NCBI GenBank assembly: GCA_014879735.1
Contig: JACSRN010000087.1
Coordinates: 1-35,577, forward strand
Reading direction: 5' to 3'
Source of the DNA: Paracoccaceae bacterium
Lineage (GTDB): Bacteria; Pseudomonadota; Alphaproteobacteria; Rhodobacterales; Rhodobacteraceae
Length of the DNA: 35,577 bases
Each line of letters opens with the position of its first letter. Position 1 is the first letter of the stretch. The notes below the pieces were generated by a model, which was not told where the DNA came from, ran no database searches, and saw only the letters and a list, made by a program, of their open reading frames with translations. Below, piece by piece: positions 7,053 to 26,039 of the stretch. The position numbers and the translations under genes were made by a program.

Positions 7053-7066
7053 ACTGAGCGATCCGG

Positions 7067-7607: not shown

Positions 7608-7620
7608 ATGGTTGCCGCCC
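7608..7620 (+). repeat. Left subterminal inverted repeat of the IS1111-type element
   Basis: The bases atggttgccgccc are the exact reverse complement of 8976-8988. They mark the left end of the element. Confidence 0.85.
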
Positions 7621-7690
7621 TCCCCAAACGGCATCGCGATGTGCCAAGATTGTGGTGTTCAGAGCCACAAAACGGAGAGGACGGCATATA

Positions 7691-9957: not shown

Positions 9958-10104
9958 TCACTGGCAGCGGTAGGATTGGTCTTTCGCGATTTTCTGAATT
10001 GCACGTAGATCAACAGAACTTGGGGATGGATGATAGGCAGGGTGGACGCACAACGACGCATCGAACGGGATGGTGACGTCCTTGCCCCTGACAATCTCGA
10101 CCAT
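9958..10104 (-). pseudogene. Possible remnant of a small iron-sulfur (Fer4_19/CDGSH-associated) protein
   Basis: A 48-codon frame starts with ATG at 10104 after TAAGGGAGATTGCAC, a good ribosome site. The first 21 residues, including VEIVRGKDVTIPFDASLCVH, resemble the opening of small (4Fe-4S) mono-cluster proteins (G-K-D-V-T-I-x-F-x-x-x-x-C-I-H). The rest does not match and lacks the further cysteines, so it reads as a truncated gene whose 3' end was lost when the island or another element joined. The family call is tentative. Confidence 0.3.
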
Positions 10105-10215
10105 GTGCAATCTCCCTTAGCGGCGACAATCGCGTGACCGCCACCCGGGAAGGCTGCCCCCTATGCACTTCGCCTCCTCAAGGATTCGATCTGACTGGAC
10201 AGGAGAGCGGGCAAC

Positions 10216-11415
10216 TCACACGCGTTCCAGCGCGATGGCGATGCCCTGCCCCACGCCGATGCACATGGTAGAGAGTGAGCGTCTGCCGTTGATGTGGCGC
10301 AATTCCAGCGCGGCCGTGCCGGTGATCCTCGCACCCGACATGCCCAAGGGGTGACCCAGCGCGATGGCCCCGCCGTTGCGGTTCACCCGAGGGTCATCGT
10401 CGGCGATCCCAAGCTGGCGCAGCGTGGCCACGCCTTGCGCGGCGAAGGCCTCGTTCAGTTCGATCACGTCGAAATCTGCCTGGGAGAGCCCCAGCCGCGC
10501 CATCAGTTTCTGGCTCGCGGGTGCCGGGCCGATGCCCATGATGCGCGGCGGCACGCCCGCGGTCGCCCCGCCGAGGACGCGGGCGATCGGCGTCAGGCCA
10601 TGCGCGCGGGCGGCGTCGGCGCTGGCCAGTATCAGCGCCGCGGCGCCATCGTTGACGCCCGACGCGTTCCCCGCCGTGACCGAGCCGTTCGGGAACAGTG
10701 ACCGCAGCTTTGCCAGCGCCTCGGCCGTTGTCGCGCGGGGATGCTCATCGCGGTCTACCACCAGCGCCTCGCCCTTGCGCTGCGGGATCGTGACAGGGGT
10801 GATCTCAGCCGCGAGGCGCCCGTTGACTTGCGCAGCCGACGCCTTGGCCTGGCTGGACAGTGCCATCGCGTCCTGCGCCTCGCGGCTGATGCCGTAGTCA
10901 TCCGCCACGTTCTGCCCGGTCTGCGGCATCGAATCCGTGCCGTAGGCCGCGTGCATCGCCGGATTGATCAGCCGCCAGCCGATGGTGGTGTCGCAGATCT
11001 CGGCGTTGCGAGAAAAGGCGTTGTCGGCCTTGGGCATTACGAAGGGGGCGCGGCTCATGCTTTCGACACCGCCCGCGATGACTAGCTGCGCCTCGCCGGC
11101 GGCGATCTGGCGCGCCGCGGTCAGCACCGCGTCCATTCCCGAGCCACAAAGCCGGTTGATCGTGGTCCCGGTGACGCCGACCGGCAGCCCCGCCAGCAAC
11201 AGCGACATCCGCGCCACGTTGCGGTTATCCTCGCCCGCCTGGTTGGCGCAGCCGAAGATCACGTCATCGACCGCCGCCCAGTCCACACCCGCGTTGCGGT
11301 CCATCAGCGCTCGCAGGGGAATGGCCGCCAGATCGTCGGGGCGCACCGATGAGAGCGCCCCGCCATAGCGCCCGATCGGCGTGCGGATGTAGTCGCAGAT
11401 GAAGACGTCGGTCAT
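10216..11415 (-). CDS. pcaF: 3-oxoadipyl-CoA thiolase (beta-ketoadipyl-CoA thiolase)
   Basis: This enzyme should split 3-oxoadipyl-CoA with CoA into succinyl-CoA and acetyl-CoA, the last step of adipate beta-oxidation. The 399-residue protein has the thiolase triad: Cys90 in [11 protein letters not shown], His355 in [10 protein letters not shown] and Cys385 in MCIGVGQG. The N-terminal [20 protein letters not shown] and [15 protein letters not shown] segments are typical of PcaF/PaaJ rather than generic acetyl-CoA acetyltransferases. It is the last gene of the minus-strand operon, 23 bp after etfA, with GGAGCACCAAC before the ATG. No terminator is obvious downstream. A broader acyl-CoA thiolase activity cannot be excluded. 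Confidence 0.88.
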
Positions 11416-11438
11416 GTTGGTGCTCCGAGTGTGGCAAC

Positions 11439-12365
11439 TTACAGCTTCTCGATCATTTCCGGCACGGCGGTAAACAGGTCTGCGACCAATCCATAGTCGG
11501 CGACCTGGAAGATTGGGGCCTCTTCGTCCTTGTTGATCGCGACGATGACCTTCGAATCCTTCATCCCGGCGAGGTGTTGGATCGCACCCGAGATGCCGAC
11601 GGCGACGTAAAGGTCCGGAGCCACGACCTTGCCGGTCTGCCCGACTTGCCAGTCGTTCGGCGCAAAGCCCGAGTCCACCGCGGCGCGCGAGGCACCGACA
11701 GCGGCGTTCAGCTTGTCCGCGAGCTTCTCAATCAGCGCGAACTCGGTCTGCGAGCCCACGCCACGTCCGCCCGAGACCACGATCCCGGCCGACGTCAGCT
11801 CGGGACGGTCGGGGGACGCGACCTTATCCTCGACCCAGGCGGACAGCCCGCTGTCGACCGAGGCCGAGACCTTCTCGACCGGGGCGTTACCGCCCTTGCC
11901 CGCCGCATCGAAAGTCGCGGTGCGGATGGTCAGCACCTTCTTCGTATCCGAGGTCTTGACCGTGTGGATCGCGTTCCCGGCATAGATTGGCCGGTCGAAG
12001 GTCGCAGCGTCATGCACCGCCAGCACTTCCGAGATCACCATGACGTCCAGCAGGGCTGCCACGCGGGGCAGGACCGACTTGGACAATGCGCCCGAGGCGG
12101 CGACGATGTGCTCGTAGTCACCGGCCAGCGACACGACCAGCGCGGCGGTGGGCTCGGCCAGGCCATGCGCGTAGGCCCCGTCCTCGGCCAGTAGTACCTT
12201 CGCCACGCCTTCCAGCGTCGCGGTCTCGGCCGCAGCGGCCGCTGCATCGGGATCCGCGACCAGCACGGTCACTGGACCCAGCGATTTCACCGCGGTCAAC
12301 GCCTTCGCCACCTGGTCGGTCGCGAGTTTCCCGTCAGCAACGTCGGCAAGAAGAAGAACGGCCAT
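11439..12365 (-). CDS. etfA: Electron transfer flavoprotein alpha subunit
   Basis: The alpha subunit carries the FAD of the heterodimeric ETF, which takes electrons from acyl-CoA dehydrogenases and passes them to ETF-quinone oxidoreductase. The 308-residue length is standard. The C-terminal FAD domain is clear: [18 protein letters not shown] near 200, then [17 protein letters not shown] and [20 protein letters not shown]. It starts one base after the etfB stop, so the two subunits are co-translated. Its place in this operon points to a dedicated electron acceptor for the acyl-CoA dehydrogenase at 21413. The quinone oxidoreductase partner is not in the window. Confidence 0.95.
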
Positions 12366-12366
12366 C

Positions 12367-13128
12367 TCAGATCACCCCTGCTTCGTCTTTGAGTTTTGCG
12401 ATCAGCTCGGCCACCGAGCCGACCTTAACGCCCGCCTTGCGGCCCGCCGGTTCCACGGTCTTGACGACCGACAGCCGCGGGCTCACGTCCACGCCGTAGT
12501 CGGCAGGCGTCTTGGTCGCCAGCGGCTTGGCCTTGGCCTTCATTATGTTCGGCAGCGAGGCATAGCGCGGCTCGTTCAGGCGCAGGTCGACGGTGATGAT
12601 CGTCGGCATCTTGACTGTGATCGTCTGCAGACCGCCGTCCACCTCGCGGGTGACCTTGGCTTGGTCGCCGTTGATCGACACTTCCGAGGCGAAGGTCGCC
12701 TGGCTCCAGCCGAGAAGCGCCGAAAGCATCTGGCCGGTGGCGTTCATGTCGTTGTCGATCGCCTGCTTGCCGCAAAGGACGAGGCCCGGCTTTTCTTCCT
12801 TCACCACGGCCGCCAGCAGCTTGGCCACGGCCAAGGGCTCGATGTCCACATGCAGGTTGTCCGTCGCCTCGATCAGGATGGCGCGGTCGGCCCCCATCGC
12901 GAGCGCGGTCCGCAGCGTTTCCTGGGCCTGCTTGACGCCGATGGAGACGACCACGACCTCGGTCGCGATGCCCTTCTCCTTCAGACGGATCGCCTCTTCC
13001 ACGGCAATCTCGTCAAAGGGGTTCATCGACATCTTCACATTGGCCAGATCGACACCCGTGCCATCCGCCTTCACGCGGACCTTCACGTTGTAGTCGATCA
13101 CCCGTTTGACAGGCACCAGAACCTTCAT
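12367..13128 (-). CDS. etfB: Electron transfer flavoprotein beta subunit
   Basis: This 253-residue ETF beta subunit starts [20 protein letters not shown] and has the family features [35 protein letters not shown] and [19 protein letters not shown]. The ATG at 13128 is preceded by AAGGAAGCTCTCCT and matches the usual N-terminus, so a longer frame was not used. The 68-bp gap to the upstream dehydrogenase gene contains a strong hairpin (13152-13184), so etfBA may be expressed at a different level from the upstream genes. Confidence 0.95.
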
Positions 13129-13151
13129 AGGAGAGCTTCCTTTCTCACATC

Positions 13152-13184
13152 CCCTGTCCGCCCGGTCGTGCTGGGCGGACAGGG
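13152..13184 (-). other. Intercistronic hairpin between chnA-like gene and etfB
   Basis: A perfect 12-bp GC-rich stem (ccctgtccgccc / gggcggacaggg) with a nine-base loop fills much of the gap. There is no T-run after it on the transcribed strand. mRNA processing or stabilisation, or partial termination, are possible. Confidence 0.6.
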
Positions 13185-13196
13185 CAGTCATGTGCG

Positions 13197-13952
13197 TCAG
13201 TTTGCGGTGTAGCCACCGTCCACGACGATCTCGGCGCCATGGACGAACGAGGCTTCGTCCGAAGCAAGGAACAGCACCGCGTTCGACACTTCCTCGGGCT
13301 TGCTCGGACGCTTGAGGAGCGTACAGCCCAGGATCGCCTGCCGCGTGGCCGGATCGGCGTGCAGCAGATCCTTGGTCATCGGCGTGTCAATGACGCCAGG
13401 GTGGATCGAGTTCACCCGGATCCCGGTATCTGCCAGATCGACGGCACAGGATTTGGTCAGCATCCTCACAGCACCCTTGGAACCGATATAGGCCCCGGCC
13501 ATTGCCGCACCGACGATGCCGTAGATCGACGAAATGTTCACGATCGAGGCCTTGTCCGCTTCCTTCATCAGCGGCACGGCCGCGCGGATGCCCAGATAGA
13601 CGCCCTTCACGTTGACGTTCATCGTCAGGTCGAATTCCTCGGGCGTTGTTTCGTGCAGGGGCTTCAAGATCAGCACGCCCGCGTTGTTGACAAGGATGTC
13701 CAGCCGCCCGGCCTTGGCACGCACAGTGGCAATGGCGTTGGCCCAGTCGGCTTCGCTTGCCACGTCATGCTTGATGAAGTCGGCCTTGCCACCTGCTGCC
13801 ACAATGCCCTTGGCGACCGCCTCACCCGCCGCCACGTCCCGGTCTGTGACGAAGACATGCGCGCCTTCCCGCGCCAGAAGTTCGGAGTGGGATTTGCCCA
13901 TCCCCATTGCTGCGCCCGTCACGAGGGCGACTTTTCCCGATACACGTCCCAC
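13197..13952 (-). CDS. chnA: Short-chain dehydrogenase, probable cyclohexanol dehydrogenase
   Basis: This 251-residue classical SDR should oxidise cyclohexanol to cyclohexanone. It shows the cofactor motif TGAAMGMG (12-19), Asp37 at the end of the second strand (favouring NAD+ over NADP+), NNAG (89-92) and the catalytic Ser142-Tyr155-Lys159 set (YIGSK). The C-terminal [13 protein letters not shown] is typical. The substrate assignment comes from its position directly downstream of a cyclohexanone monooxygenase gene; SDR sequence alone does not settle it. Translation begins at a GTG (13952) after AAGGGAGAGAG. An 87-bp gap with a long hairpin separates it from chnB. Confidence 0.82.
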
Positions 13953-13992
13953 AGACTCTCTCCCTTATTGCTGTGTGGTTTTCTTGGCGCAT

Positions 13993-14024
13993 GGCGGGCC
14001 GGGCACAATCCTGCCCGGCCCGCC
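13993..14024 (-). other. Intercistronic hairpin between chnB and chnA-like gene
   Basis: A perfect 13-bp stem (ggcgggccgggca / tgcccggcccgcc) with a six-base loop lies 16 bp after the chnB stop. It is the strongest hairpin in the operon. No T-run follows on the transcribed strand, so stabilising or attenuating roles are more likely than full termination. Confidence 0.65.
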
Positions 14025-14039
14025 GCGCGTTCCGTAGCT

Positions 14040-15677
14040 TCAGGCGCTTGCCATCTCGCGGTCGAAGATCATGGTCTGGTAACCACCATCCTTCACCGCG
14101 TTGATCGCGTTGCGGTAATTGCCGATGCCCGCCATGTAGAACATCACCGCGTTCTTCTTGCCGGGGATGTTCGCACCGAAGATCCAACTTTCGGCTTTCG
14201 GGAATAGGGTCATGTCCGCAATTGTCCGGCAGAGCGTGACCCATTCGTCCCGGGCGGCCTCGGTCGGCTCGATGGCCTTCAGGCCCTTGCCCTCCATCAT
14301 CTCGATGGTGTCGGCGATCCACTCGACCTGCGTTTCGATGCTCGGCGGCAGGTTGGTGAAGGGGCCATTCGGGCCAAGGATCATGAAGAGGTTCGGGAAA
14401 TCCGTCTCCATCATGCCCAGATAGCCCAGGGGGCCGTCCTTCCACTTGTCGCGCATGGTGACGCCGCCGCGGCCGCGCATGTCCATCTTGACGTAGTTGC
14501 CGTCCACCGCGTCAAAGCCAGTGGCGAAGATCACCACATCCAGCTCATGCTCCGCGCCACTTTCCAGCCGGATACCGGTCGCGGTGAACTCGGCGATCGG
14601 GTCGGCCTTTATATCGGCGAGGGTGACATTGGGCCGATTGTAGACCTCATAGTAGTTGTTCCCGCACAAGGGGCGCTTGGCATAGATGTCGCGCGGCGTC
14701 AGCGCCTTTGCGGTTGCGGGATCCTTCACGATTTCCTTGATTTTCTTCTTGATGAAGTCGGCAGCCGCGTCATTTGCGATCTGGCTGGTCGCAATGTCGC
14801 AGAACGTTCCAAACATGAAGTAGAAGCCGCCGCCGCGCTGCCATGCGGCCTCGAACACGCGTTCGCGTTCTTCAGGCGAAGCGGTTTCCGCAGGCACGGT
14901 GCTTTCCTCGAAGCCGAAGGCCACGACCGAGGATTTCACTTGTTTCCAGATGTCGTCGTAGTTGGCCTTTTGCTGGGCGATCGTCGCCTCGTCCTGGGGC
15001 GTGTTGCCGATCGGCACGACATATTGGGGCGAGCGCTGGAATACCGTAAGATGTCCGGCAATCGGAGCGGTCGCGGTGATGACCTGAACCCCGGTCGAGC
15101 CGGTGCCGATCACGCCGACGCGCTTGCCCTTGAGTTCGACACCCTCGGGCCAGTTGCCGGTGTGCAGCATCTGGCCCTTGAAGCTGTCAATGCCCTTGTA
15201 TTTCGGCGTGTTCGTCGCGGACAGCAGGCCAAGCCCCGTGATCAAGTATTTCGCGGTGACCGTCTCGCCCTTGTCGGTTGTCACATGCCACAGCCCGGTT
15301 TCGTCATTGAAATGGGTCGCGGTGACACGAGTGTTGAACTGGAAGCTGCGGCGCAGGTCGTAGGTGTCTGCAACCTCGTTCATGTAGGCGAGGATTTCGG
15401 GCTGGGTAAGATAGCGGGTCTTCCAGCGACCCTTTTGCAAAAGCTCGCCGCTGAAGGAATAGCGGTAGACGAAGCTTTCGGTATCCGACAGCGCGCCGGG
15501 ATAGCGGTTCCAGTACCAGGTGCCACCCACATCGCCTGCACGGTCGAAGGCCTTGACGTTCAGGCCCTGTTCATTGCGCAATTTGTAGACGGAATAGAGA
15601 CCGCCGAAGCCCGCACCGATGACGACAGCATCGAAATCGGCGCCCTTGGTCTTTGTGGTTTCAACAGATTTGGTCAT
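14040..15677 (-). CDS. chnB: Cyclohexanone monooxygenase (type I Baeyer-Villiger monooxygenase)
   Basis: This FAD- and NADPH-dependent enzyme inserts oxygen into cyclohexanone to give epsilon-caprolactone. The 545-residue protein has the FAD Rossmann motif GAGFGG (21-26), GGTWYWNRYPG (51-61), the Baeyer-Villiger fingerprint FKGQMLHTGNWP (166-177) and the NADPH Rossmann motif GTGSTG (191-196). It also has FATGFDAVDGNYVKMD and LGPNGPFTNLPPSIETQVEW near the C-terminus. These long blocks agree closely with the well-studied Acinetobacter and Rhodococcus cyclohexanone monooxygenases as I recall them, so this subgroup rather than acetone- or phenylacetone-type enzymes is favoured. The ATG at 15677 has GGGAGGAG six bases ahead. 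Hairpin-bearing gaps lie on both sides. Confidence 0.93.
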   Translation of the reverse strand: MTKSVETTKTKGADFDAVVIGAGFGGLYSVYKLRNEQGLNVKAFDRAGDVGGTWYWNRYPGALSDTESFVYRYSFSGELLQKGRWKTRYLTQPEILAYMNEVADTYDLRRSFQFNTRVTATHFNDETGLWHVTTDKGETVTAKYLITGLGLLSATNTPKYKGIDSFKGQMLHTGNWPEGVELKGKRVGVIGTGSTGVQVITATAPIAGHLTVFQRSPQYVVPIGNTPQDEATIAQQKANYDDIWKQVKSSVVAFGFEESTVPAETASPEERERVFEAAWQRGGGFYFMFGTFCDIATSQIANDAAADFIKKKIKEIVKDPATAKALTPRDIYAKRPLCGNNYYEVYNRPNVTLADIKADPIAEFTATGIRLESGAEHELDVVIFATGFDAVDGNYVKMDMRGRGGVTMRDKWKDGPLGYLGMMETDFPNLFMILGPNGPFTNLPPSIETQVEWIADTIEMMEGKGLKAIEPTEAARDEWVTLCRTIADMTLFPKAESWIFGANIPGKKNAVMFYMAGIGNYRNAINAVKDGGYQTMIFDREMASA

Positions 15678-15755
15678 GATACTCCTCCCAGAGCATGGCA
15701 CTGCCGCCCCGCGAAAAGCGGGTGAAAGGCCGGTTGACTGTGATGATATTTGTTG

Positions 15756-15786
15756 CTGCCCTGCGCCAGCTGGCGGCGCGGGGCAG
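15756..15786 (-). other. Intercistronic hairpin between chnC-like gene and chnB
   Basis: An 11-bp stem with one mismatch (ctgccctgcgc / gcgcggggcag) and a nine-base loop lies five bases after the chnC-like stop codon on the transcribed strand. It belongs to a series of such structures in this operon. Confidence 0.5.
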
Positions 15787-15791
15787 TCGGA

Positions 15792-16694
15792 TCAGAGGGC
15801 GCGATACCAAGCGGCGATGCGTGCCAGTTCCTGATCGGCCTCGGGGGCGCGGCCCGACAGGGCCGGGAAGACGTGCTGCATCCCCGGCACCACCGAGAGT
15901 GCGACGTTCACGCCCTGCGACTTGGCCTTGGCGGCCAGCGACTCGGAATCGCTTTGCAGCGTCTCGGCCCCGCCGCAAGTGATGTAGAGCGGCGGGAAGC
16001 CGGTGAAATCGTTTTCCAGCGGGTTGGCCAGCGGGTTCAGCGGATCGGTCGCGCCGCCGAGGAACATGCCGGCCATCGCTTCAAGGATCGGCTTGCCGAC
16101 CAGCGCATCGGTGGCGGCGTTGGTTTCCAACGTCTTGCCGCGCAGCGCCATGTCAAGCCAGGGCGAATAGGCGATGACCGCACCCGGAAGGGGCAGGCCA
16201 AGGTCGCGGAACTTCAGCACCGAAGCGATGGCGAGGTTGCCACCCGCGCTGTCGCCTGCAGTCAGAATGTTCCTCGCCTCGAACCCTTGGGCCAGCAGCG
16301 CTTTGTAAGCGGCCACGGCATCCTCGATCTGGGCGGGGAAGGGGTGTTCCGGCGCACGGCGATAGTGCAGAATGCAGGCGGTCACGCCCAGCACTTTAGC
16401 AAGATGGCCCGCCATCTTTCGGTGGCTGTCGGCCGAACCAACAGCAAACCCGCCGCCATGAGTATAAACGATCACGCGCTTGGCGTCGGCGCCCACGGGC
16501 AGGGCCCAGATCGCCTCGACCCCGCCGACATGGTCGCTCTTGTAGGTGACGTTCTCCGGTTCCAGCGCGGGCTGGCCCCATTCGTCGAACATGCTGCGCA
16601 GGTTGGCGATGGTCAGGCCGGGGTTCGCGACCATCTGGTCGGTCCAGCTCTGATAGAGCGCTCGCAGTGAATCGGCTTCCTTGCTGATTGCCAT
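15792..16694 (-). CDS. chnC: Alpha/beta hydrolase of the HSL family, probable epsilon-caprolactone hydrolase
   Basis: This 300-residue hydrolase should open epsilon-caprolactone to 6-hydroxyhexanoate. It has the HSL-family oxyanion motif HGGGF (79-83), the nucleophile elbow GDSAGG with Ser149, and His274 in PGMQHVF. The acid residue is probably Glu244 or Asp249 in GGAETLQSDS. No signal peptide is seen, so it acts in the cytoplasm. Lactonases of cyclohexanone pathways belong to this family, and the gene lies directly upstream of chnB in the same operon; the exact substrate is inferred from that. The ATG at 16694 follows TTTGGAGGATCAA; an in-frame TTG further up would swallow the ribosome site. 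Confidence 0.85.
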   Translation of the reverse strand: MAISKEADSLRALYQSWTDQMVANPGLTIANLRSMFDEWGQPALEPENVTYKSDHVGGVEAIWALPVGADAKRVIVYTHGGGFAVGSADSHRKMAGHLAKVLGVTACILHYRRAPEHPFPAQIEDAVAAYKALLAQGFEARNILTAGDSAGGNLAIASVLKFRDLGLPLPGAVIAYSPWLDMALRGKTLETNAATDALVGKPILEAMAGMFLGGATDPLNPLANPLENDFTGFPPLYITCGGAETLQSDSESLAAKAKSQGVNVALSVVPGMQHVFPALSGRAPEADQELARIAAWYRAL

Positions 16695-16904
16695 TTGATC
16701 CTCCAAAGGTGGCGTTCCGGTCCGGTCCGTTCCCCCTGCGTTCGATCCTCCATCGGCGCAGGGATCGCGGAGTATCCCTAATCAGAGGACGTTACAGGTA
16801 TCAGCCGCGCCTCGTATTGAACGTGCCTGCTTGTCGCGTTGCATCTTCTTGCTGTTTCGCGCCCCGATGCGATCACGACCGGGGCGCGGTGGTCAGATGT
16901 GAGG
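16695..16904 (-). other. 210-bp gap between fadB-like and chnC-like genes
   Basis: No gene is seen. It holds a hairpin at 16858-16888 just after the fadB-like stop. The remainder is less GC-rich (around 16770-16830) and long enough for an internal promoter for chnCBA-etf-pcaF. No confident -35/-10 pair was identified. Confidence 0.4.
16858..16888 (-). other. Hairpin after the fadB-like gene
   Basis: A perfect nine-bp stem (cgcgccccg / cggggcgcg) with a 13-base loop begins about 16 bp past the fadB-like stop on the transcribed strand. On the minus strand it is followed by AAACAGC, not by a T-run. Confidence 0.5.
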
Positions 16905-18968: not shown

Positions 18969-18976
18969 GTCAGACC

Positions 18977-20431
18977 TCACCGTACCGGCGCGGAATTGCG
19001 CGAGATGAACTTGGTGGACAGATAACCGTCAAAAGTCTCGGTCCCACCTTCGCTGCCATAGCCACTGTCACGCACCCCGCCGAACGGCGTTTCTGGCAAT
19101 GCAAGACCAAAGTGGTTGATGCTGACCATTCCCGCCTGAAGGCACGCCGCCGAACGGTCGGCGCGCTCCAGCGAGTTGGTGAAGATGTAGGATGCAAGGC
19201 CGAACGACAGGCCATTGGCGCGCGCCAATCCGTCCTCAATTTCGCGGAAGGGCGACACAACCGCGACCGGCCCGAAAGGTTCGTCGCGCATCAGGGCGAT
19301 GCTGTCGTCCGGCGTATTCACGATTGTGGGCGCGTAGAAACTGCCGCTGTTGCCGATCCGCGCGCCCCCGGTCAGCACTTCGGCGCCGTTGTCGCGCGCA
19401 TCCGTAACCAGCTTTTCCATCGCTGTCACGCGGCCCGCATGACAAAGCGGCCCCATCTGCGTGCCCTCGGCCAAGCCGTCGCCGACCTTGACCGCCTCAA
19501 ACGCCGTCACCAGTTCCGACAGAAACCGCTCGTGAATGCCCGCCTGCACATAAAACCGCGTCGGGGAAATGCAGACCTGCCCGGCATTGCGCAGCTTGTT
19601 GCCCGCCAGCGCCCGTGCCGCCGCCCCGGCATCTGCATCGTCGAAGACCAGCACCGGCGCATGGCCCCCCAGTTCCATCGTAGCCCGCTTCATGTGTTGG
19701 CCCGCCAGCGCGGCAAGATGCTTGCCCACTTCGACCGAGCCAGTGAAAGTGATCTTGCGCACGACCGGATGCGCGATCAGCGTTTCCGAGATGAAGGCTG
19801 AATTGCCCCAGACGAGGTTCAGACACCCCTCCGGCAGACCCGCCTCCTGCAGGAAGCGCGCGATAGCTAGGCAGCCCGCCGGGGCTTCGGCCGGACCCTT
19901 CAGGATCATCGTGCAGCCAGAGGCCAGCGCCGCCGCCACCTTGCGCACGGCTTGGCTGAGCGGGAAGTTCCAGGGCGTGATGGCCAGGCAAACGCCAACA
20001 GGTTCACGCACCACCAGATGCTGCACCGTTGGATTGCGCGAGGGCACGATGCGGCCATAAATGCGGCGGCACTCTTCGGCGTGCCAGTCAACGTGATCGG
20101 CGGACGACCGCACCTCGATCAGCGCCTCGGCCAGCGGCTTGCCTTCATCCAGCGTGATCCAGCGGGCGATCATCGCATCGTTTTGCCGCAGAAGATCGGC
20201 GAACCGGCGCAGGATCGCGCCACGATCGGTGGGCGAACGGTCCTTCCAAGTGGCAAAGGCCGATTCGGCGTGGCGCACCGCACGCTCCAGATCCTCGGCC
20301 GTGGCCTGGGGAATTCGGCCAATCTCGACCCCGTTGGCCGGGTTGATGACCGCCCGATCGCCGGTAGTTGCACTCGCCAGCCAATCCTTGCCGATGAGGT
20401 GGCGGATTTGCGGGTAATCCAGATTATTCAT
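18977..20431 (-). CDS. chnE: NAD(P)-dependent aldehyde dehydrogenase, probable 6-oxohexanoate dehydrogenase
   Basis: This 484-residue protein belongs to the succinate-semialdehyde dehydrogenase branch of the ALDH superfamily and should oxidise 6-oxohexanoate to adipate. Catalytic residues are present: Asn155 in ITPWNFP, Glu253 in TMELGGHAP and Cys287 in [10 protein letters not shown] preference for an omega-carboxylated aldehyde fits the SSADH-like family. It is the first gene of the minus-strand operon. The ATG at 20431 follows GAGGACGTGAACATC; a more distal ATG at 20473 has no ribosome site. The gene symbol is assigned by role. Confidence 0.82.
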
Positions 20432-20507
20432 GATGTTCACGTCCTCGCTTGGCAGCGCCACCCGCTGTTCCATTGATGCAAGCGGGATAAGGCGGGCAGC
20501 TTCTTTA

Positions 20508-20522
20508 TTCCGCTATGCGGAA
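20508..20522. promoter_or_regulatory. Probable IclR-type operator in the divergent promoter region
   Basis: The palindrome ttccgc-tat-gcggaa is of the 15-bp size bound by IclR-family regulators. A further ttccgc half-site follows at 20528-20533. The site lies just downstream of the predicted minus-strand start and just upstream of the plus-strand -35, so one regulator could control both operons. Binding by the adjacent IclR protein is inferred. Confidence 0.6.
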
Positions 20523-20537
20523 AAACATTCCGCAGTA

Positions 20538-20566
20538 TTGACGTGGACCATATCTTTGCTTTAGAG
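20538..20566 (+). promoter_or_regulatory. Predicted promoter of the iclR-acd-adh-caiB operon
   Basis: TTGACG at 20538-20543 is followed after 16-17 bp by TTTAGA/TTAGAG near 20560-20566. It points to the GTG start at 20607 and overlaps the opposing promoter. The -10 is a weak match. Confidence 0.4.
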
Positions 20567-20575
20567 ATCATTCAA
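20547..20575 (-). promoter_or_regulatory. Predicted promoter of the aldh-fadB-chnCBA-etf-pcaF operon
   Basis: On the minus strand TTGAAT (20575-20570) and TATGGT (20552-20547) are spaced by exactly 17 bp. Transcription would start near 20540, so the IclR-type palindrome at 20508-20522 would lie just past +1, a repressing position. Confidence 0.45.
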
Positions 20576-20606
20576 TACGCAGCATCTGTCCTTGAGGAGG
20601 GACACC

Positions 20607-21398
20607 GTGAGGCCAAGGAAGGAGAAACCCGAGGATGACGAACAGGACCGCGACTTCGTGGTGGCCTTGGCGCGCGGCCTGGAACTTCTGCGCGCCTTCC
20701 GGCGTGAGGGCGAGGCGCTGGGCAACCGCGATCTTGCCGAACGCGCGGCGCTCAGCAAATCCACCGTCTCACGGCTGACCTACACGCTGCACAAACTGGG
20801 GTATCTCAGCTACAACCCAGACACCGCGCGCTACGTGTTGGCGCCCCCGGTGCTGTCACTGGGCTTTTCCTGCCTTGCCGGGATGCCCCTGCGGCAACTG
20901 GCCAAGCCTTACATGCAGGAACTCGCCGATTACACCGGGATGCCGGTGGCAATGGCCAGCCGCGACCGCCTGTCGATGGTCTATCTGGAACGCTGCAAGG
21001 GCACCAATGCGGTGACGCTCGCGATCGAAGTCGGCGCGCATATCAAGCTGGCCACCACCGCAGTCGGCCGGGCCTGTATCGCCGCCCACCCCGAGGACGA
21101 GCGCGCCCGGATGATCGACGAGGTGCGCGAGCACGAAGGCGAGAACTGGCCAAACGTCCAGCCCGGTATCGAAAAGGCGATCGAGGATTACCAGACCCGT
21201 GGCTACTGCACCTCCTATACCGAATGGAAGCGCGACGTGAACGCGGTGGCGGTGCCCTTCATCCCACGCGACGGCTCGCCCATCGTCGCCTTCAACTGTG
21301 GCGGCCCCTCGCAGACCCTGACGCGCGACTGGATAGAAAGTGATGTCGCGCCCCGCCTTATCAACGTTGTCCGCCACGTGGCGGCCGTAGCCCCCTGA
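20607..21398 (+). CDS. IclR-family transcriptional regulator
   Basis: This 263-residue regulator has the N-terminal winged helix of IclR proteins (about 18-80: VVALARGLELLRAFRREGE, then NRDLAERAALSKSTVSRLTYTLHKLGYL). An effector-binding GAF-like domain follows (about 95-260: YMQELADYTGMPVAMASRD, GAHIKLATTAVGRACIA). A GTG start at 20607 is preferred because GGAGGGAC lies six bases ahead; a TTG at 20592 would overlap that site. It heads the plus-strand operon and faces a palindromic operator in the divergent region. A pathway intermediate is the likely effector, which cannot be read from sequence. Confidence 0.92.
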   Translation: MRPRKEKPEDDEQDRDFVVALARGLELLRAFRREGEALGNRDLAERAALSKSTVSRLTYTLHKLGYLSYNPDTARYVLAPPVLSLGFSCLAGMPLRQLAKPYMQELADYTGMPVAMASRDRLSMVYLERCKGTNAVTLAIEVGAHIKLATTAVGRACIAAHPEDERARMIDEVREHEGENWPNVQPGIEKAIEDYQTRGYCTSYTEWKRDVNAVAVPFIPRDGSPIVAFNCGGPSQTLTRDWIESDVAPRLINVVRHVAAVAP

Positions 21399-21412
21399 CC
21401 CCAGAGAATACC

Positions 21413-22576
21413 ATGGCCCTAGACTCCGATACACTCGCCCAGTTCCTCGACGCGCTCGACCGCTTCGTCAAGGAACGCCTGATCCCGAACGAGGCGCTGG
21501 TCGCCGAAGAAGACGCGATCCCGCCCGCGCTGGTGCAGGAGATCCGGGAAATGGGCCTTTTCGGCATGTCGATCCCAGAGGAATACGGCGGCCTTGGCCT
21601 TTCCATGTCCGAAGAGGTGCAGGCCGCCTTCGTGCTGGGTCAGACCTCGCCGGTGTTCCGCTCACTGGTCGGCACCAACAACGGCATCGGGTCGCAGGGC
21701 ATCATCATCGACGGCACCGCCGAACAGAAGGCGAAATACCTGCCCGCGCTGGCTTCCGGCGAAATGATCGCCTCCTTTGCGCTGACCGAACCGGATGCTG
21801 GGTCGGATGCAGGCAGCTTGCGCACCACCGCCCGCCGCGATGGTGACCATTTCGTGCTGAACGGGACCAAGCGCTATATCACCAACGCGTCGCGCGCCGA
21901 TGTCTTCACCGTTTTTGCCCGCACCAATCCCGAGACAAAGGGATCGTCCGGCGTCAGCGCCTTCATCGTCGAGGCCGGAACGCAAGGCCTGTCGCTGGGC
22001 CAGCCCGACAAGAAGATGGGTCAGAAGGGCTCGCACACCTGCGACGTGATCCTTGAAGATGTCCGCGTCCCCGCCGCCAACATCATTGGTGGCCCGGCGC
22101 GGGAAAACCAAGGCTTCAAGACCGCGATGAAGGTGCTGGACCGGGGGCGTCTGCATATCTCGGCAGTCTGCGTCGGGGCGGCCGAACGGCTGATCCGCGA
22201 TGCGCTGGCCTATGCTATGGAGCGCCGCCAGTTCGGCGAACCGATTGCCGAAAAGCAACTGATTCAGGCCATGCTGGCAGACAGCCGCACCGAAGCCTTC
22301 GCCGCCCGCTGCATGATCGAGGAAACAGCCCGGCGCAGGGACGCCGGGGCGAACGTGTCCACCGATGCCGCCTGCTGCAAGATGTATGCCTCGGAAATGG
22401 TGGGCCGGGTGGCCGACCGGGCAGTGCAGATCCACGGCGGCGCAGGCTACATGGCCGAATATGCCGTCGAACGCTTCTACCGCGATGTGCGCCTTTTCCG
22501 CATCTACGAAGGCACCACCCAGATCCAGCAGGTTCTGATCGCGCGGAACATGATCCGCGATGCTGCTGCCGCCTGA
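21413..22576 (+). CDS. Acyl-CoA dehydrogenase, probable adipyl-CoA dehydrogenase
   Basis: This 387-residue FAD enzyme should desaturate adipyl-CoA to 2,3-dehydroadipyl-CoA and pass electrons to the ETF encoded by the opposite operon. The family blocks are present: ASFALTEPDAGSDAGSL for flavin and substrate binding, GQKGSHTCDVILEDVRVP, and the C-terminal RIYEGTTQIQQ with the catalytic base Glu366. The length is normal for short- and medium-chain enzymes. It starts 14 bp after the iclR stop. Chain-length and dicarboxylate specificity come from context only. Confidence 0.88.
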   Translation: MALDSDTLAQFLDALDRFVKERLIPNEALVAEEDAIPPALVQEIREMGLFGMSIPEEYGGLGLSMSEEVQAAFVLGQTSPVFRSLVGTNNGIGSQGIIIDGTAEQKAKYLPALASGEMIASFALTEPDAGSDAGSLRTTARRDGDHFVLNGTKRYITNASRADVFTVFARTNPETKGSSGVSAFIVEAGTQGLSLGQPDKKMGQKGSHTCDVILEDVRVPAANIIGGPARENQGFKTAMKVLDRGRLHISAVCVGAAERLIRDALAYAMERRQFGEPIAEKQLIQAMLADSRTEAFAARCMIEETARRRDAGANVSTDAACCKMYASEMVGRVADRAVQIHGGAGYMAEYAVERFYRDVRLFRIYEGTTQIQQVLIARNMIRDAAAA

Positions 22577-22590
22577 CCGAACCGGAGCCC

Positions 22591-23748
22591 ATGATGGATT
22601 TCAACTTTCTCGCCACCCCCAGCATCGTCTGCCAGAGCGGCGGCCTCGCCCAGCTTGGCAGCCTGACCAAAGGTCTGTCAGTCACCCGCGCCTTCGTGAT
22701 CACCGACCCCGGCATCGTCGCCTGCGGTTTTGCCGGTGAGGCGGTCGCGGCACTCAAAGGCGCAGGCATCGCTGCCGAGATCTTTGATAAAGTGCAGGCC
22801 GACCCACCCATCGCGGTTGTCGAGGCCGCAGTTGAGGCCGCGACTAGCTTCGGCGCCGACGGCGTCATCGGTCTGGGCGGCGGCAGTTCGCTCGATACCG
22901 CAAAGGTCGTGGCGGTCGCCGTGGCCAGCGGCCAGCCGATTGCCGACATGATCGGCGTGGACCGCGTGAGGGGCCAGCGCCTGCCACTGATCCAGGTGCC
23001 GACCACCGCCGGAACCGGGTCCGAGGTGACCTGGGTTTCGGTGCTGACATCGGAGAGCCACGAGAAGAAGGCGGTCTATGCGCCGCAGCTTCTGCCCGAC
23101 ATCGCCCTTCTGGATGCCAAGCTCACGCTCGGGATGCCACGTTCGATCACTGCGGCCACCGCACTGGATGCGATGGTGCATGCGATCGAGGCCGCAACCA
23201 GCCGCACCCGCAAGAACCCTATTTCCGACGGTCTGGCCGACAAGGCGCTGGTCCTTCTGGGCCAGAACCTGCCCCGCGTGCTGGATACCCCGACGGACCT
23301 TGAGGCGCGCGAAGCGATGTTGCTGGGCGCCACTCTGGCCGGGATGGCCTTCATCAACGCCAGCGTCGGCGCGATCCACGCGCTGTCCTATCCCCTTGGC
23401 ACCGGTTTCCACGTTCCGCACGGCCATGCCAACGCGCTGGTGGCAGGCCCGGTCCTGCGCTTCAACCTGCCCGTCGCCGAGGCGGAATACGCCCGCCTGT
23501 CGCGTCTCCTTTTGCCTGCCCGCCATTTCAACTCCGACGCGGCGGCGGCCCTTGCCCTGATCGAGGAAATGGAGCGGATGCTGAAGGCCAGCGGCCTCAA
23601 GGCCCGCCTGTCCGAGGTTGGTGTGACCGAGGCCGCCATTCCCGGCATGGCAAACGAGGTCGTGACCGGTATCAGCCGGCTGCTGGCCACCAACCCGCGC
23701 GACATGACGGCCGACGACGTGGCCTCCCTTTACCGCGAGGTGTTGTGA
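22591..23748 (+). CDS. Iron-containing alcohol dehydrogenase, probable 6-hydroxyhexanoate dehydrogenase
   Basis: This 385-residue group III alcohol dehydrogenase should oxidise 6-hydroxyhexanoate to 6-oxohexanoate. It shows the NAD-binding GGGSSLDTAK (97-106), VPTTAGTGSEVT and the four metal ligands Asp193, His197, His263 and His277 (ALDAMVHAIE, IHALSYPLG, HVPHGHANA). Family members include 4-hydroxybutyrate and 1,3-propanediol dehydrogenases. The known ChnD of cyclohexanol degraders, as I recall it, is a zinc-type enzyme, so this would be a non-homologous replacement. The next codon pair ATG-ATG leaves the start uncertain by one residue. The stop overlaps the next start (TGATG). Confidence 0.85.
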   Translation: MMDFNFLATPSIVCQSGGLAQLGSLTKGLSVTRAFVITDPGIVACGFAGEAVAALKGAGIAAEIFDKVQADPPIAVVEAAVEAATSFGADGVIGLGGGSSLDTAKVVAVAVASGQPIADMIGVDRVRGQRLPLIQVPTTAGTGSEVTWVSVLTSESHEKKAVYAPQLLPDIALLDAKLTLGMPRSITAATALDAMVHAIEAATSRTRKNPISDGLADKALVLLGQNLPRVLDTPTDLEAREAMLLGATLAGMAFINASVGAIHALSYPLGTGFHVPHGHANALVAGPVLRFNLPVAEAEYARLSRLLLPARHFNSDAAAALALIEEMERMLKASGLKARLSEVGVTEAAIPGMANEVVTGISRLLATNPRDMTADDVASLYREVL

Positions 23749-24950
23749 TGCCCGGCGCGCTTGACGGAATCCGCGTCCTTGACCTCAGCCGCGTGCTGGG
23801 CGGCCCCTATTGCACCCAGACGCTGGCCGACCATGGCGCCGAGATCATCAAGGTCGAGCCTCCGCAAGGGGACGAGACGCGCGAATGGGGCCCGCCCTTC
23901 AACGACGGGCTTTCCGCCTATTTTTCCGGCGCCAACCGCAACAAGCGCTCCATCGCCATCGACATCGGCAAGCCCGAGGGGCGCGACGTGATCCTGCGCC
24001 TGCTCGAAGGCGCCGACGTCCTGGTCCACAACTTCAAGTCCGGTGCTTTGGAAAAATGGGGTCTCGGCTATGATGCGGTGCTCAAGAACCGTTTTCCCCG
24101 CCTGATCCTTTGTCACGTCACCGGCTTTGGTGCCGATGGCCCGTTGGGCGGCTTCCCCGGCTATGACGCCGTGGTGCAGGCGATGACCGGCCTGATGAGC
24201 ATCAACGGAAACCCGGCCAATGGCCCGACGCGGATGGGCACGCCCATCGTGGATATCGGCACAGGACTCATCGCCTGCAATGCGGTGCTGGCGGCTATCA
24301 TCGAACGGTTCCGCTCTGGGCTGGGCCAAGCAATCGAAGTGCCACTTTACGACTGCGCCATCAGCATGATGCACCCGCAAGCTGCAAACAGCCTCATGTC
24401 GGGAAAGGTCCCGGTTGCCACCGGCAACGGGCACCCCAACATCGTGCCCTATGACATGTTCGAAACCCGAACCGGCAAGTTATACCTCGCCGTTGGCAAC
24501 AACGGCCAGTTCGCCAAGCTCTGCGAGGTGCTAGGCCTGTCCGACGTCCCGCAAGACCCCCGCTTTGCCGACAACGCTGCCCGGCTGGCCCACCGCGCCG
24601 AAATCACGGAAATCCTGTCTGCGCGCCTTGCGGAGAGCGACGCCCGGGCGCTTGAACCCGCGCTGCTGCGCGCAGGTGTCCCGACAGGCGTGGTGCGCAA
24701 CGTGATCGACGCGCTTGACCACCCGCATACCCGCCATCGCGGCATGGTGGTGTCGGTCGGCAGCTACAAGGGCACTGGCGTTCCGGCACGTCTGTCGCGG
24801 ACACCAGGCGAAGTCCGCGCCGCCCCGCCCCGGTTCGCACAGCATAGCCGTGTCCTGCTCAAGGAGGCGGGTTTTTCGGAACAGCAGATCGACGATCTGA
24901 CGCAGTCGGGCGTCGTTCTTGAGGAACGGACGGACACGGTTCAGAGATGA
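23748..24950 (+). CDS. CaiB/BaiF-type class III CoA-transferase, probable adipate CoA-transferase
   Basis: This 400-residue family III CoA-transferase should activate adipate to adipyl-CoA using another acyl-CoA, perhaps succinyl-CoA made by the thiolase of the same pathway. Typical segments are VLDLSRVLGGPYCTQTLADHGAEIIKVE (10-37, split by conserved glycines), NRNKRSIAIDIG, and the catalytic aspartate Asp169 in TPIVDIGTG, exactly where the family has it. The ATG at 23748 overlaps the upstream stop codon, implying coupled translation with the alcohol dehydrogenase. Acceptor and donor identities are inferred from context. Confidence 0.86.
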   Translation: MPGALDGIRVLDLSRVLGGPYCTQTLADHGAEIIKVEPPQGDETREWGPPFNDGLSAYFSGANRNKRSIAIDIGKPEGRDVILRLLEGADVLVHNFKSGALEKWGLGYDAVLKNRFPRLILCHVTGFGADGPLGGFPGYDAVVQAMTGLMSINGNPANGPTRMGTPIVDIGTGLIACNAVLAAIIERFRSGLGQAIEVPLYDCAISMMHPQAANSLMSGKVPVATGNGHPNIVPYDMFETRTGKLYLAVGNNGQFAKLCEVLGLSDVPQDPRFADNAARLAHRAEITEILSARLAESDARALEPALLRAGVPTGVVRNVIDALDHPHTRHRGMVVSVGSYKGTGVPARLSRTPGEVRAAPPRFAQHSRVLLKEAGFSEQQIDDLTQSGVVLEERTDTVQR

Positions 24951-24960
24951 CGCGCAAAGC

Positions 24961-24980
24961 CGGGCCGCCAACTCGGCCCG
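24961..24980 (+). other. Hairpin between caiB-like and araC-like genes
   Basis: The bases cgggccg-ccaact-cggcccg form a seven-bp stem 10 bp after the CoA-transferase stop and 24 bp before the regulator start. No T-run follows; partial termination is possible. Confidence 0.4.
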
Positions 24981-25003
24981 ACCGCCAATAAAGGGGGAGC
25001 CAG

Positions 25004-25885
25004 ATGCAGAAAGCACTCGTGACGCCAGACCGGATTCCTGAGTGGATTCCCGGCACAATCACGATGGACAGTTCCGGCCGGGACTGGAAGGGCATCACGA
25101 TGAAAGGCTACCACTACGATCGCCAGGACGCGGCCATCCCCGCGATGCGCGATTACATGATCGTAGCCTACGACGGAAATCCGACGACCATGCTGCGAAC
25201 AAGTGGCGGATCAAGGCAAAGCGCGCCCGTTGGCAGGGGCAGGATCTCGCTTTTGACGCGGGCCGAGCAATCCACGTGGTGCTGGGCAGAACCGATCAAG
25301 GTTCGGCATATCTACATCGGTCATGACTGCCTTGAGGACACGGCACAGACCGTGTTTGGCCGCAGTCCGCAATCCGTCGAGATACAAGATCAGGTTTCGG
25401 CCGAGGATCCGGTTCTGCTAAACTGCTTCCACATGCTTGAAAACGAACTGCGCAACGGTGGCATGGGGCAGCGCCTGATGATTGACGCGCTGCGCAACCA
25501 GATCGCGGTGCATATGCTGCGACGCTATGCCCGGATCCGGCTTGCCGATGAAAGCGGCTCCGCCTTCAGCCCGACTCAACGCAAACGCATCATAGACCTC
25601 ATCGAAGACCAGCTCAGCGAAAACATCAGCCTTGACGATCTCGCCGCTGCCGTCGGCCTCAGCCCGTTTCACTTTTCCCGCCAGTTCAAGGCCGACTTCG
25701 GGATCGCCCCATACGCCTTTGTAATCCAGAAACGTGTCAGCAAGGCACAGGAGATGCTCCGACGCGGGCGCCTTCCACTTAAGTCGGTCGCGCTGGACTG
25801 TGGTTTCTCCGACCAAAGCCACCTTTGCCGTACATTTCGCAAGATAGTAGGTGTGACGCCAGCCCAGTACCAGAACAGAGCATGA
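25004..25885 (+). CDS. AraC/XylS-family transcriptional regulator
   Basis: This 293-residue protein has the two helix-turn-helix motifs of AraC regulators in its last 100 residues: ISLDDLAAAVGLSPFHFSRQF and LKSVALDCGFSDQSHLCRTF, ending with VGVTPAQYQ. The N-terminal 170 residues would sense an effector. A strong ribosome site (AAGGGGGAGCC) precedes the ATG. It closes the plus-strand operon. Known chn clusters use an AraC-type activator (ChnR), so a matching role here is plausible, with the IclR protein as second control. Orthology to ChnR was not tested. Confidence 0.93.
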   Translation: MQKALVTPDRIPEWIPGTITMDSSGRDWKGITMKGYHYDRQDAAIPAMRDYMIVAYDGNPTTMLRTSGGSRQSAPVGRGRISLLTRAEQSTWCWAEPIKVRHIYIGHDCLEDTAQTVFGRSPQSVEIQDQVSAEDPVLLNCFHMLENELRNGGMGQRLMIDALRNQIAVHMLRRYARIRLADESGSAFSPTQRKRIIDLIEDQLSENISLDDLAAAVGLSPFHFSRQFKADFGIAPYAFVIQKRVSKAQEMLRRGRLPLKSVALDCGFSDQSHLCRTFRKIVGVTPAQYQNRA

Positions 25886-26039
25886 CTTTCGCCGCGAGTA
25901 TCATTTGCAGGTCTTGACCTTCTGCGAGCACAAACGATGGCGGACCTCTGTTGGGCTCTGACTTGCCCCCTCCACCAAGTCAGGACCAATTGATCATTCG
26001 CTCGCTGCGTCACTCGGACTCCGTGAGGAGACTGACCGA
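25886..26039. other. Short gap at the right side of the catabolic island
   Basis: No gene is seen after the AraC stop. Sequence becomes less GC-rich and leads into an IS remnant; the right edge of the catabolic island is probably here. Confidence 0.35.

Follow-up and report, generated by a model that had tools for sequence, protein, structure and literature searches.

A plasmid-borne gene island predicted to degrade cyclohexanol and cyclohexanone completely in an alphaproteobacterium

Described systems and the island compared

In Acinetobacter, the chn cluster comprises chnA-E for the five upper steps to adipate, together with ChnR, and its ChnD is a zinc-type enzyme. Going by these gene roles as generally given, the island analysed here shares with it the same five upper steps, an enzyme of the cyclohexanone monooxygenase (CHMO) class and an AraC-type regulator alongside; its SDR, CHMO, lactone hydrolase and aldehyde dehydrogenase (ALDH) genes are grouped with a regulator, as expected of a chn cyclohexanol cluster. 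It departs from the Acinetobacter cluster in having an iron-type dehydrogenase (PF00465) instead of the zinc-type ChnD, and goes beyond it in adding CoA activation, beta-oxidation, ETF and IclR genes. A zinc-type alcohol dehydrogenase was present in the four other CHMO loci tested (Polaromonas, Pseudomonas kurunegalensis, Actibacterium and Pseudosulfitobacter SMR1). On plasmid 2 of Polaromonas sp. JS666, hydrolase, CHMO and SDR genes are likewise adjacent (68/64/66% identical), and the TTCAATAC box recurs with CAA 22 bp upstream, but the locus has the zinc enzyme and a GAF/Fis-type regulator; a CoA-transferase (34%) is present, with no ETF and no PcaF thiolase in the stretch fetched.

The preliminary description pointed out that chn clusters usually stop at adipate and leave beta-oxidation to other loci. 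Linkage of upper and lower pathways is not unique to this locus, as plasmids of P. kurunegalensis 2024CK-00038 and Rhodococcus sp. YL-1 (pYLL2) also link them. The former carries CHMO modules together with an adipate-type module (3-oxoadipyl-CoA thiolase, CoA-transferase, IclR, acyl-CoA dehydrogenase and etfBA), but about 12 kb, including IS66 and a group II intron, separates the modules, the alcohol dehydrogenase is of the zinc type, hydratase and dehydrogenase are separate, and the thiolase belongs to the NF006001 branch (739.7 against a cutoff of 622). On pYLL2, hydrolase, CHMO, ALDH and SDR genes are linked, in about 13 kb, to lower genes a few kb from the CHMO gene (CoA-transferase, acyl-CoA dehydrogenase at 47%, MaoC, FabG and a thiolase at 46%). 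That thiolase fits NF004853 (681.6 vs 551) and fails the PcaF model (389 vs 597), and the locus further differs in its GAF/Fis-type regulator, in having no ETF in the stretch and in having no TnCAATAC box. In P. jessenii GO3, caprolactam-to-adipate and adipate beta-oxidation clusters lie on one 40-kb contig, with CoA-transferase, thiolase, 3-hydroxyacyl-CoA dehydrogenase, hydratase, IclR and acyl-CoA dehydrogenase genes as in the island; entry there is from caprolactam through a caprolactamase and an aminotransferase, and the part of the report available to us mentions no CHMO (PMC6061476). Among the top matches listed in the openly accessible literature, no published account of the island itself was found.

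We consider it quite likely that this 15.9-kb plasmid-borne catabolic island degrades cyclohexanol and cyclohexanone completely. This reading is favoured by the enzyme families and motifs, the placement of the CHMO, the PcaF cutoff, the conserved gene order, the dN/dS values, the operator layout and the host ETF-QO. It is also favoured because the P. kurunegalensis CHMO plasmid carries a homologous module of IclR, acyl-CoA dehydrogenase, CoA-transferase, thiolase and ETF, and because P. jessenii GO3 induces a comparable set of genes on caprolactam, according to the accessible part of that report (PMC6061476).

Gene content and predicted enzymes

The window, that is, the whole stretch of DNA analysed, is one entire contig of 35577 bases; its ends do not overlap, and therefore the plasmid is incomplete or its circularity not shown. 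Its features are as follows.

902-2314, plus strand: repA (NCBIfam model)
2314-3306, plus strand: repB (NCBIfam model)
3490-4701, plus strand: repC (NCBIfam model)
10042-25937, no strand: segment in common with a Roseibium plasmid and regarded as the unit that moves (single blastn match, 15910 columns)
10216-11415, minus strand: 3-oxoadipyl-CoA thiolase (PcaF; thiolase motifs)
11439-12365, minus strand: ETF alpha subunit (PF00766, PF01012)
12367-13128, minus strand: ETF beta subunit (PF01012)
13197-13952, minus strand: SDR, predicted cyclohexanol dehydrogenase, ChnA role (PF13561; YxxxK)
14040-15677, minus strand: cyclohexanone monooxygenase (Baeyer-Villiger; bit scores, fingerprint, Rossmann motifs)
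15792-16694, minus strand: alpha/beta hydrolase of HSL type, predicted caprolactone hydrolase (PF07859; HGGG, GDSAG)
16814-16853, minus strand: predicted site of an AraC-type activator, ahead of the lactonase gene: two half-sites AGCA(A/G)G...CAA(T/C) with a spacing of 22 bp
16905-18968, minus strand: fused enoyl-CoA hydratase / 3-hydroxyacyl-CoA dehydrogenase (PF00378, PF02737, PF00725; motifs)
18977-20437, minus strand: aldehyde dehydrogenase, predicted 6-oxohexanoate dehydrogenase, ChnE role (PF00171; SSADH-like)
20508-20533, plus strand: TTCCGC-N3-GCGGAA-N5-TTCCGC, predicted IclR site
20592-21398, plus strand: IclR regulator, PcaR/PcaU/PobR-like (PF01614, PF09339)
21413-22576, plus strand: acyl-CoA dehydrogenase, predicted adipyl-CoA dehydrogenase (PF00441; YEGTTQ)
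22591-23748, plus strand: iron-type alcohol dehydrogenase, predicted 6-hydroxyhexanoate dehydrogenase, ChnD role with another fold (PF00465)
23745-24950, plus strand: family III CoA-transferase, predicted succinyl-CoA:adipate CoA-transferase (PF02515)
25004-25885, plus strand: AraC-type regulator, predicted activator (PF12833)

The preliminary description had proposed a repABC plasmid carrying eleven enzyme or electron-carrier genes in pathway order, among them a CHMO-class monooxygenase, a 3-oxoadipyl-CoA thiolase and an ETF of its own, with no hydroxylase, and all of this is borne out, the lack of a hydroxylase for the 13 proteins of the block. The rep genes stand in order and exceed their cutoffs (TIGR03453, 645.8 vs 348.45; TIGR03454, 309 vs 201.5; NF040974, 476.6 vs 150), and positions 1-7700 are nearest to a Paracoccus pantotrophus plasmid (91.8% identity over 98%). 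Positions 10216-25885 hold eleven intact enzyme or electron-carrier genes plus the IclR and AraC regulators, all ORFs without internal stops, and the predicted families run in unbroken order from cyclohexanol to succinyl-CoA plus acetyl-CoA. This gene content, the families and the catalytic motifs are established from the sequence, and we infer the substrates and the CoA donor. No specific NCBIfam cutoff was reached by the SDR, ALDH, iron-type dehydrogenase, CoA-transferase, IclR or acyl-CoA dehydrogenase.

The SDR, which passes only the cutoff of the broad NF005559 subfamily, would convert cyclohexanol to cyclohexanone. An SDR gene adjoins the CHMO gene in four of the six other CHMO loci inspected (Actibacterium, Polaromonas, the first P. 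kurunegalensis copy and Pseudosulfitobacter SMR1), is one gene away in Rhodococcus and is absent beside CHMO in Sphingobium. The monooxygenase would insert oxygen into cyclohexanone to give epsilon-caprolactone. The hallmark of type I BVMOs is the fingerprint FxGxxxHxxxW(P/D) plus two Rossmann motifs, found here as FKGQMLHTGNWP, GAGFGG and GTGSTG. Against solved structures, the enzyme scores 753.8 bits with TmCHMO and 728-739 with others titled CHMO, compared with 678-706 for entries titled 'putative flavin-binding monooxygenase' and with 494, 458 and 411 for steroid MO, PAMO and OTEMO, which places it in the CHMO class. The epsilon-caprolactone ring would be opened to 6-hydroxyhexanoate by the alpha/beta hydrolase, whose closest relatives of solved structure are general esterases, and the iron-type dehydrogenase and then the ALDH would lead on to adipate; the latter is 55%, 50% and 51% identical to the CHMO-neighbouring ALDHs of P. 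kurunegalensis, Sphingobium and Actibacterium.

Adipate would be charged by the CoA-transferase (362.4 bits with the succinate--glutarate CoA-transferase model, under its cutoff of 750), for which succinyl-CoA is the simplest donor; regenerated by the thiolase, this donor would allow adipate activation without ATP. Adipyl-CoA would then be oxidised by the acyl-CoA dehydrogenase (69% identical to its counterpart in the P. kurunegalensis module), with electrons passing to the island ETF and on to the host ETF-QO. A second EtfAB pair and a single ETF-QO match are found in the host genome, all on contigs other than that of the island. The ETF beta start at 13128 was picked by comparison with the Roseibium gene, the ORF listing giving 13191. 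The fused hydratase/dehydrogenase and then the thiolase would yield succinyl-CoA and acetyl-CoA. The thiolase exceeds the curated PcaF cutoffs (TIGR02430, 661.1 vs 597; NF006551, 708.1 vs 605), and is not the only one in this genome: another contig (C143) holds a further PcaF that scores above the cutoff. No uptake gene was found among the 13 genes of the block.

Transcription units, regulators and DNA elements

The two divergent operons first proposed are probably three transcription units, since 210 bp lie between the lactonase and hydratase/dehydrogenase genes of the minus strand. Two conserved DNA elements are newly described here: ahead of the IclR operon stands a palindrome with an added box, and ahead of the lactonase operon a TnCAATAC repeat. 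The elements themselves are observed; operon limits, inducers and the pairing of regulator with element we infer.

The IclR regulator scores 141.3 bits with the PcaR/PcaU/PobR model TIGR02431, below the cutoff of 284.75. Bound to the three-box operator, it would control the divergent ALDH and IclR-acyl-CoA dehydrogenase-iron dehydrogenase-CoA-transferase operons. The arrangement at 20508-20533 resembles that of the PcaU/PobR/HmgR operators, which consist, in the part of the source available, of a palindrome plus an external direct half-site (PMC8222616). The palindrome is kept in 8/8 loci of the lineage inspected, with one base changed in three; the third box is exact in four of the eight, with one change in three and two changes in one. 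The exact three-box pattern occurs in 4 of 123 loci, namely the window's own stretch and three Roseibium/Labrenzia loci. The palindrome is found once in the window, a count not decisive by itself because 22 of 100 shuffles also gave at least one match with one mismatch allowed. The site immediately precedes a TTGAC element, named from the alignment only because a promoter scan between ALDH and IclR gave no consensus match.

The AraC-type regulator (31% identical to the P. kurunegalensis AraC) would probably act on the repeat upstream of the lactonase-CHMO-SDR-ETF-thiolase operon. Among 15 upstream regions, the TnCAATAC box precedes the lactonase gene in 10, a CAA lies 21-22 bp further upstream in 9, and both boxes show AGCARG in 6. 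The repeat is seen in Polaromonas and Pseudomonas too, where the Polaromonas and P. kurunegalensis boxes have in common only TTCAATAC and the upstream CAA. One 22-bp-spaced pair occurs in the window as against 0/100 approximate shuffles, a circular comparison, since this very sequence supplied the half-site pattern. Conservation of the boxes inside one lineage partly reflects common descent.

Distribution, alternative readings and significance

The same gene order, a search for which was suggested at the outset, was found in other genomes. The block is collinear with a Roseibium plasmid (window 10042-25937, 15.9 kb, 89.0% DNA identity), and a more distant form is found on Sulfitobacter-type plasmids (72.3-72.5% DNA identity, one plasmid measured). 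All 13 genes are present at no less than 97% coverage in 12 of the 15 same-type plasmid loci fetched, and in conserved order also in a genome of the same family (G355). This collinearity and the 12 complete loci argue that the block is not a chance assembly. Selection is evident as well, with dN/dS of 0.037-0.192 against Roseibium (13/13 genes) and 0.042-0.193 against Sulfitobacter THAF37 (the 11 of 13 genes where dS was computable).

An alternative, which we regard as unlikely, makes cyclohexanol only a side substrate; the true one would be a larger or substituted cyclic ketone, or else a simple lactone or polyester monomer such as caprolactone. CHMOs accept many ketones, no cyclohexane hydroxylase was found among the 13 proteins by family search, and of the 20 plasmid records whose BVMO shows 80% identity or more, 6 have source fields naming polyethylene surfaces. 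These six are not independent, however, the three read fully naming one aquarium and the other three sharing a strain prefix. The SDR (dN/dS 0.037) and CHMO (0.054), unneeded for a caprolactone-only role, are under purifying selection, and the thiolase falls in a family named for unsubstituted 3-oxoadipyl-CoA, although that is annotation, not a test. That a CHMO cassette merely lies beside an unrelated dicarboxylate beta-oxidation cassette is highly improbable: Actibacterium and the WOFB24 contig do lack several genes at the locus, which suggests a modular block, and the stretch fetched from Agrobacterium has homologues of ETF, thiolase and acyl-CoA dehydrogenase with no CHMO, but the ALDH and iron-type dehydrogenase genes sit among the lower-pathway genes, ETF and thiolase follow CHMO and SDR at short gaps, and the order is kept between forms differing by 11% and about 27% in DNA.

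In Sulfitobacter-type loci, an interval of about 2.4 kb in which no genes are listed, between lactonase and hydratase/dehydrogenase, was considered as the seat of a hidden hydroxylase. The idea was rejected: on visual inspection the ORFs of this interval resemble remnants of transposases, and in Mameliella an IS110 transposase is annotated between these genes. The host genome has five P450 matches on four contigs, none of them the island's; inspection of two of these matches gave no substrate assignment.

The preliminary description had also called the block transferable. Movement between bacteria is supported by the identity with the Roseibium plasmid; transfer genes are not, as neither a VirB4-type ATPase (PF03135) nor a relaxase (PF03432), the two families searched, was matched in the host's own fragmented draft assembly. 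Judging from the sequence comparisons, the block looks like a real travelling package and not an isolated oddity. More tentatively, and with somewhat less than even confidence, we suggest that the island is a self-contained route from cyclohexanol to the TCA cycle, equipped with its own ETF and with a two-layer switch (the three-box IclR operator and the 22-bp-spaced activator repeats), and that it has moved whole from one alphaproteobacterial order to another, carried by unrelated plasmids. Its retention by strains associated with algae, corals and plastic would then mean that cyclohexanol/cyclohexanone or caprolactone truly serves as a substrate there and has been overlooked. If so, a bacterium given this one 16-kb fragment should grow on cyclohexanol and adipate-type monomers, needing little from the chromosome except ETF-QO and uptake, and the fragment could be of use in recycling nylon and polyester monomers. 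The recurrence of the pathway on marine bacterial plasmids would become a testable question, and the two conserved elements would offer a direct way to study how genes are controlled in response to cyclohexanone or adipate. The carriers' source fields name algae, corals, seawater, a copepod, a vent plume and plastic surfaces, none being cyclohexanol enrichments, and one partial carrier comes from an oil-contaminated tidal flat.

Gene content and enzyme assignments

The window is the whole of contig C4 (35577 bases) of a draft genome of 4.39 Mb in 201 contigs. In its left part repA, repB and repC all score above curated cutoffs, in agreement with the repABC plasmid proposed in the preliminary description, and positions 1-7700 match a Paracoccus pantotrophus plasmid at 91.8% DNA identity over 98%. 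The catabolic island is flanked by two transposases:

7652-8716, IS110-type transposase (left)
10216-25885, island of 13 genes: 11 for enzymes or electron carriers, plus the IclR and AraC regulators
26423-27862, IS1182 transposase (right)

The minus strand encodes, in order of transcription, ALDH, a fused hydratase/dehydrogenase and, after a 210-bp gap, the hydrolase (predicted lactonase), the monooxygenase (BVMO), the predicted cyclohexanol dehydrogenase (SDR), etfB, etfA and the thiolase; the plus strand encodes IclR, the acyl-CoA dehydrogenase (ACAD), an iron-type alcohol dehydrogenase (Fe-ADH), a CoA-transferase and AraC. None of the 13 genes contains an internal stop. The island is an intact, selected and mobile catabolic unit, most likely directed at cyclohexanol or cyclohexanone and carried on plasmids of several marine genera; its chief points are its completeness, its mobility and its regulatory elements. 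We found no description of it among the top-ranked results of a literature search.

The BVMO scored 728-754 bits against structures titled cyclohexanone monooxygenase (CHMO) and 678-706 bits against entries whose title says no more than putative flavin-binding monooxygenase, versus 494 for steroid monooxygenase, 458 for phenylacetone monooxygenase and 411 for OTEMO; its sequence shows both the BVMO fingerprint and a pair of Rossmann motifs. The thiolase exceeds the PcaF cutoff (661.1 vs 597). The other enzymes were assigned from family and neighbourhood only: the best model for the CoA-transferase is succinate-glutarate, with a score under that model's cutoff, the ALDH is closest to succinate-semialdehyde dehydrogenases and the hydrolase to general esterases. 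Catalytic motifs, read according to their generally known meanings, were searched in 9 of the 11 proteins and were present in all 9, the second-metal-site histidines of the Fe-ADH being identified by eye.

Distribution, movement and selection

A DNA search of the plasmid collection returned 6 records covering at least 80% of the island (Roseibium/Labrenzia, 98% coverage, 89.1%). The BVMO protein matched 139 plasmid records at E 1e-50 or better, 20 of them at least 80% identical. Sixteen of these 20 loci were retrieved: 15 are of the same type, and the sixteenth, from Actibacterium, carries SDR, BVMO, hydrolase, IclR and ACAD, 5 of the 13 genes, at 76-90% identity. The other four are three Labrenzia records known from DNA matches only and Phaeobacter G2, whose locus was left out. 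A search for the same gene order elsewhere, suggested in the preliminary description, was rewarded: all 13 genes occur at 97% coverage or more in 12 of the 15 same-type loci, and 13 of 13 are present in G355, a genome of the window's own family. Matches are shortened in Mameliella (Fe-ADH, 65%; AraC, 84%) and in S. pontiacus (Fe-ADH, 59%; ACAD, 75%), where the thiolase is also less identical and annotated as split; these frames reflect either decay or sequencing errors. The S. alexandrii locus is truncated by the edge of the retrieved stretch. PLSDB types 13 of the 16 retrieved plasmids as mobilizable, 2 as conjugative and 1 as non-mobilizable.

At E 1e-150 or better, BVMO matches were found in 3 of 394 genomes sampled within the family and in 7 of 390 sampled within the order, both counts including the own genome. 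Apart from the latter, identities were 82% (n = 1) and 50% (n = 1) in the family and 82% (n = 5) and 49% (n = 1) in the order, with G355 in both draws. Such small numbers indicate that the island is rare and patchy.

A single match of 89.0% identity to Roseibium spans 10042-25937. The island's neighbours are arsA and IS66 in Roseibium; in the Sulfitobacter types they are ParB and genes for type IV secretion. That the shared stretch is kept while its flanks differ supports transfer of the island as a unit. The transferability claimed earlier is favoured by the Roseibium match; as to the window's plasmid, the own draft assembly gave no match to PF03135 or PF03432. DNA identity to the window is 72.3-72.5% for the one Sulfitobacter-type plasmid measured and 72.3-72.6% for G355. 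The plasmid backbone and G355 together suggest that the window's host is one of the Rhodobacterales. The closest relative found is therefore on a Hyphomicrobiales plasmid, whereas a member of the own family has a more distant form. Values of dN/dS were 0.037-0.192 against Roseibium for all 13 genes, the highest being that of the hydratase/dehydrogenase, and 0.042-0.193 against Sulfitobacter THAF37 for 11 genes, dS being saturated for SDR and AraC.

Predicted regulatory elements

Two elements were predicted:

20508-20533, plus strand, IclR-operon element
16814-16853, minus strand, repeat upstream of the lactonase

The first, in the ALDH-IclR gap, consists of a palindrome, TTCCGC-N3-GCGGAA, five bases and a third box; TTGAC comes next. 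The palindrome is kept in all 8 lineage loci inspected (window, Roseibium, two Sulfitobacter, Yoonia, S. alexandrii, Actibacterium, WOFB24), with one changed base in 3; the third box reads TTCCGC in 4, TACCGC in 3 and TACTGC in 1. The palindrome is absent from the CHMO stretches of Polaromonas, SMR1 and P. kurunegalensis; by eye, the ECH-IclR gap of the last shows a comparable pattern on TTTCG/CGAAA. Palindromes with an external direct half-site are described for PcaU, PobR and HmgR in PMC8222616.

Upstream of the lactonase, a TnCAATAC box occurs in 10 of the 15 regions examined, with CAA 21-22 bp upstream of it in 9, and AGCARG is found in both boxes in 6 (window, Roseibium, Sulfitobacter THAF37, Yoonia, Actibacterium, WOFB24). 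In Sulfitobacter D7 the TnCAATAC box is present with an altered first half-site, and in P. kurunegalensis copy b the box is confined to the region's far edge; among the 15 regions, it is absent from Sphingobium, Rhodococcus, Neobacillus and the SMR1 ALDH promoter. That AraC acts at this repeat is a guess, as the regulator near the Polaromonas CHMO locus is of the GAF/Fis type.

Known systems and variant clusters

The upper half of the island fits the chn scheme, and the Acinetobacter chn cluster stops at adipate. The preliminary description took this to be usual for chn clusters, but it is not the rule everywhere: upper and lower genes are also linked on the P. kurunegalensis plasmid (identity to the window: ACAD 69%, etfB 67%, etfA 58%, thiolase 55%, IclR 45%, CoA-transferase 42%) and on Rhodococcus YL-1 pYLL2, although the latter has a non-PcaF thiolase. 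Four other CHMO loci carry a zinc dehydrogenase where the island has the iron type. In P. jessenii GO3, a set of lower genes of this kind shows induction on caprolactam (PMC6061476). A second PcaF above cutoff lies on contig C143 of the own genome and a second EtfAB on contig C182; the island therefore duplicates these functions and is not their sole supplier.

Alternative CHMO clusters in Pseudosulfitobacter SMR1 (L089 6475-16510) and Actibacterium (L004 7179-18493) carry a zinc ADH, a MaoC-type hydratase and a carbon-carbon lyase, which is citryl-CoA lyase-like and above the NF004868 cutoff in the former, RipC-like and under cutoff in the latter. PcaF thiolase is absent from both stretches, and these clusters perhaps serve branched rings. 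In compact relatives (L006 1-8367, L004 15002-21002) IclR faces the lactonase directly, without the intervening ALDH and hydratase/dehydrogenase, and in L006 there is no Fe-ADH between ACAD and CoA-transferase either. On an Agrobacterium plasmid (L096 8329-17530), a cluster of ETF-QO, pcaF (76%), etfAB, paaH, hydratase and ACAD (66%) is akin to the island's lower half, with CHMO absent from the stretch. A 4HBT-family thioesterase, outside the 13 genes of the window, adjoins AraC in Sulfitobacter-type islands (L091 7137-7595 and equivalents). A Neobacillus drentensis contig (L007 9085-18890) has a CHMO (70%) and a hydrolase (66%) close to those of the window, a surprising find in a Bacillus relative, which may reflect transfer or contamination. 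Finally, a tyrosine-recombinase gene lies at the right contig end (33075-35575), with a second in tandem recognised by eye; integrase pairs likewise occur near CHMO or adipate genes on Rhodococcus and Pseudomonas plasmids.
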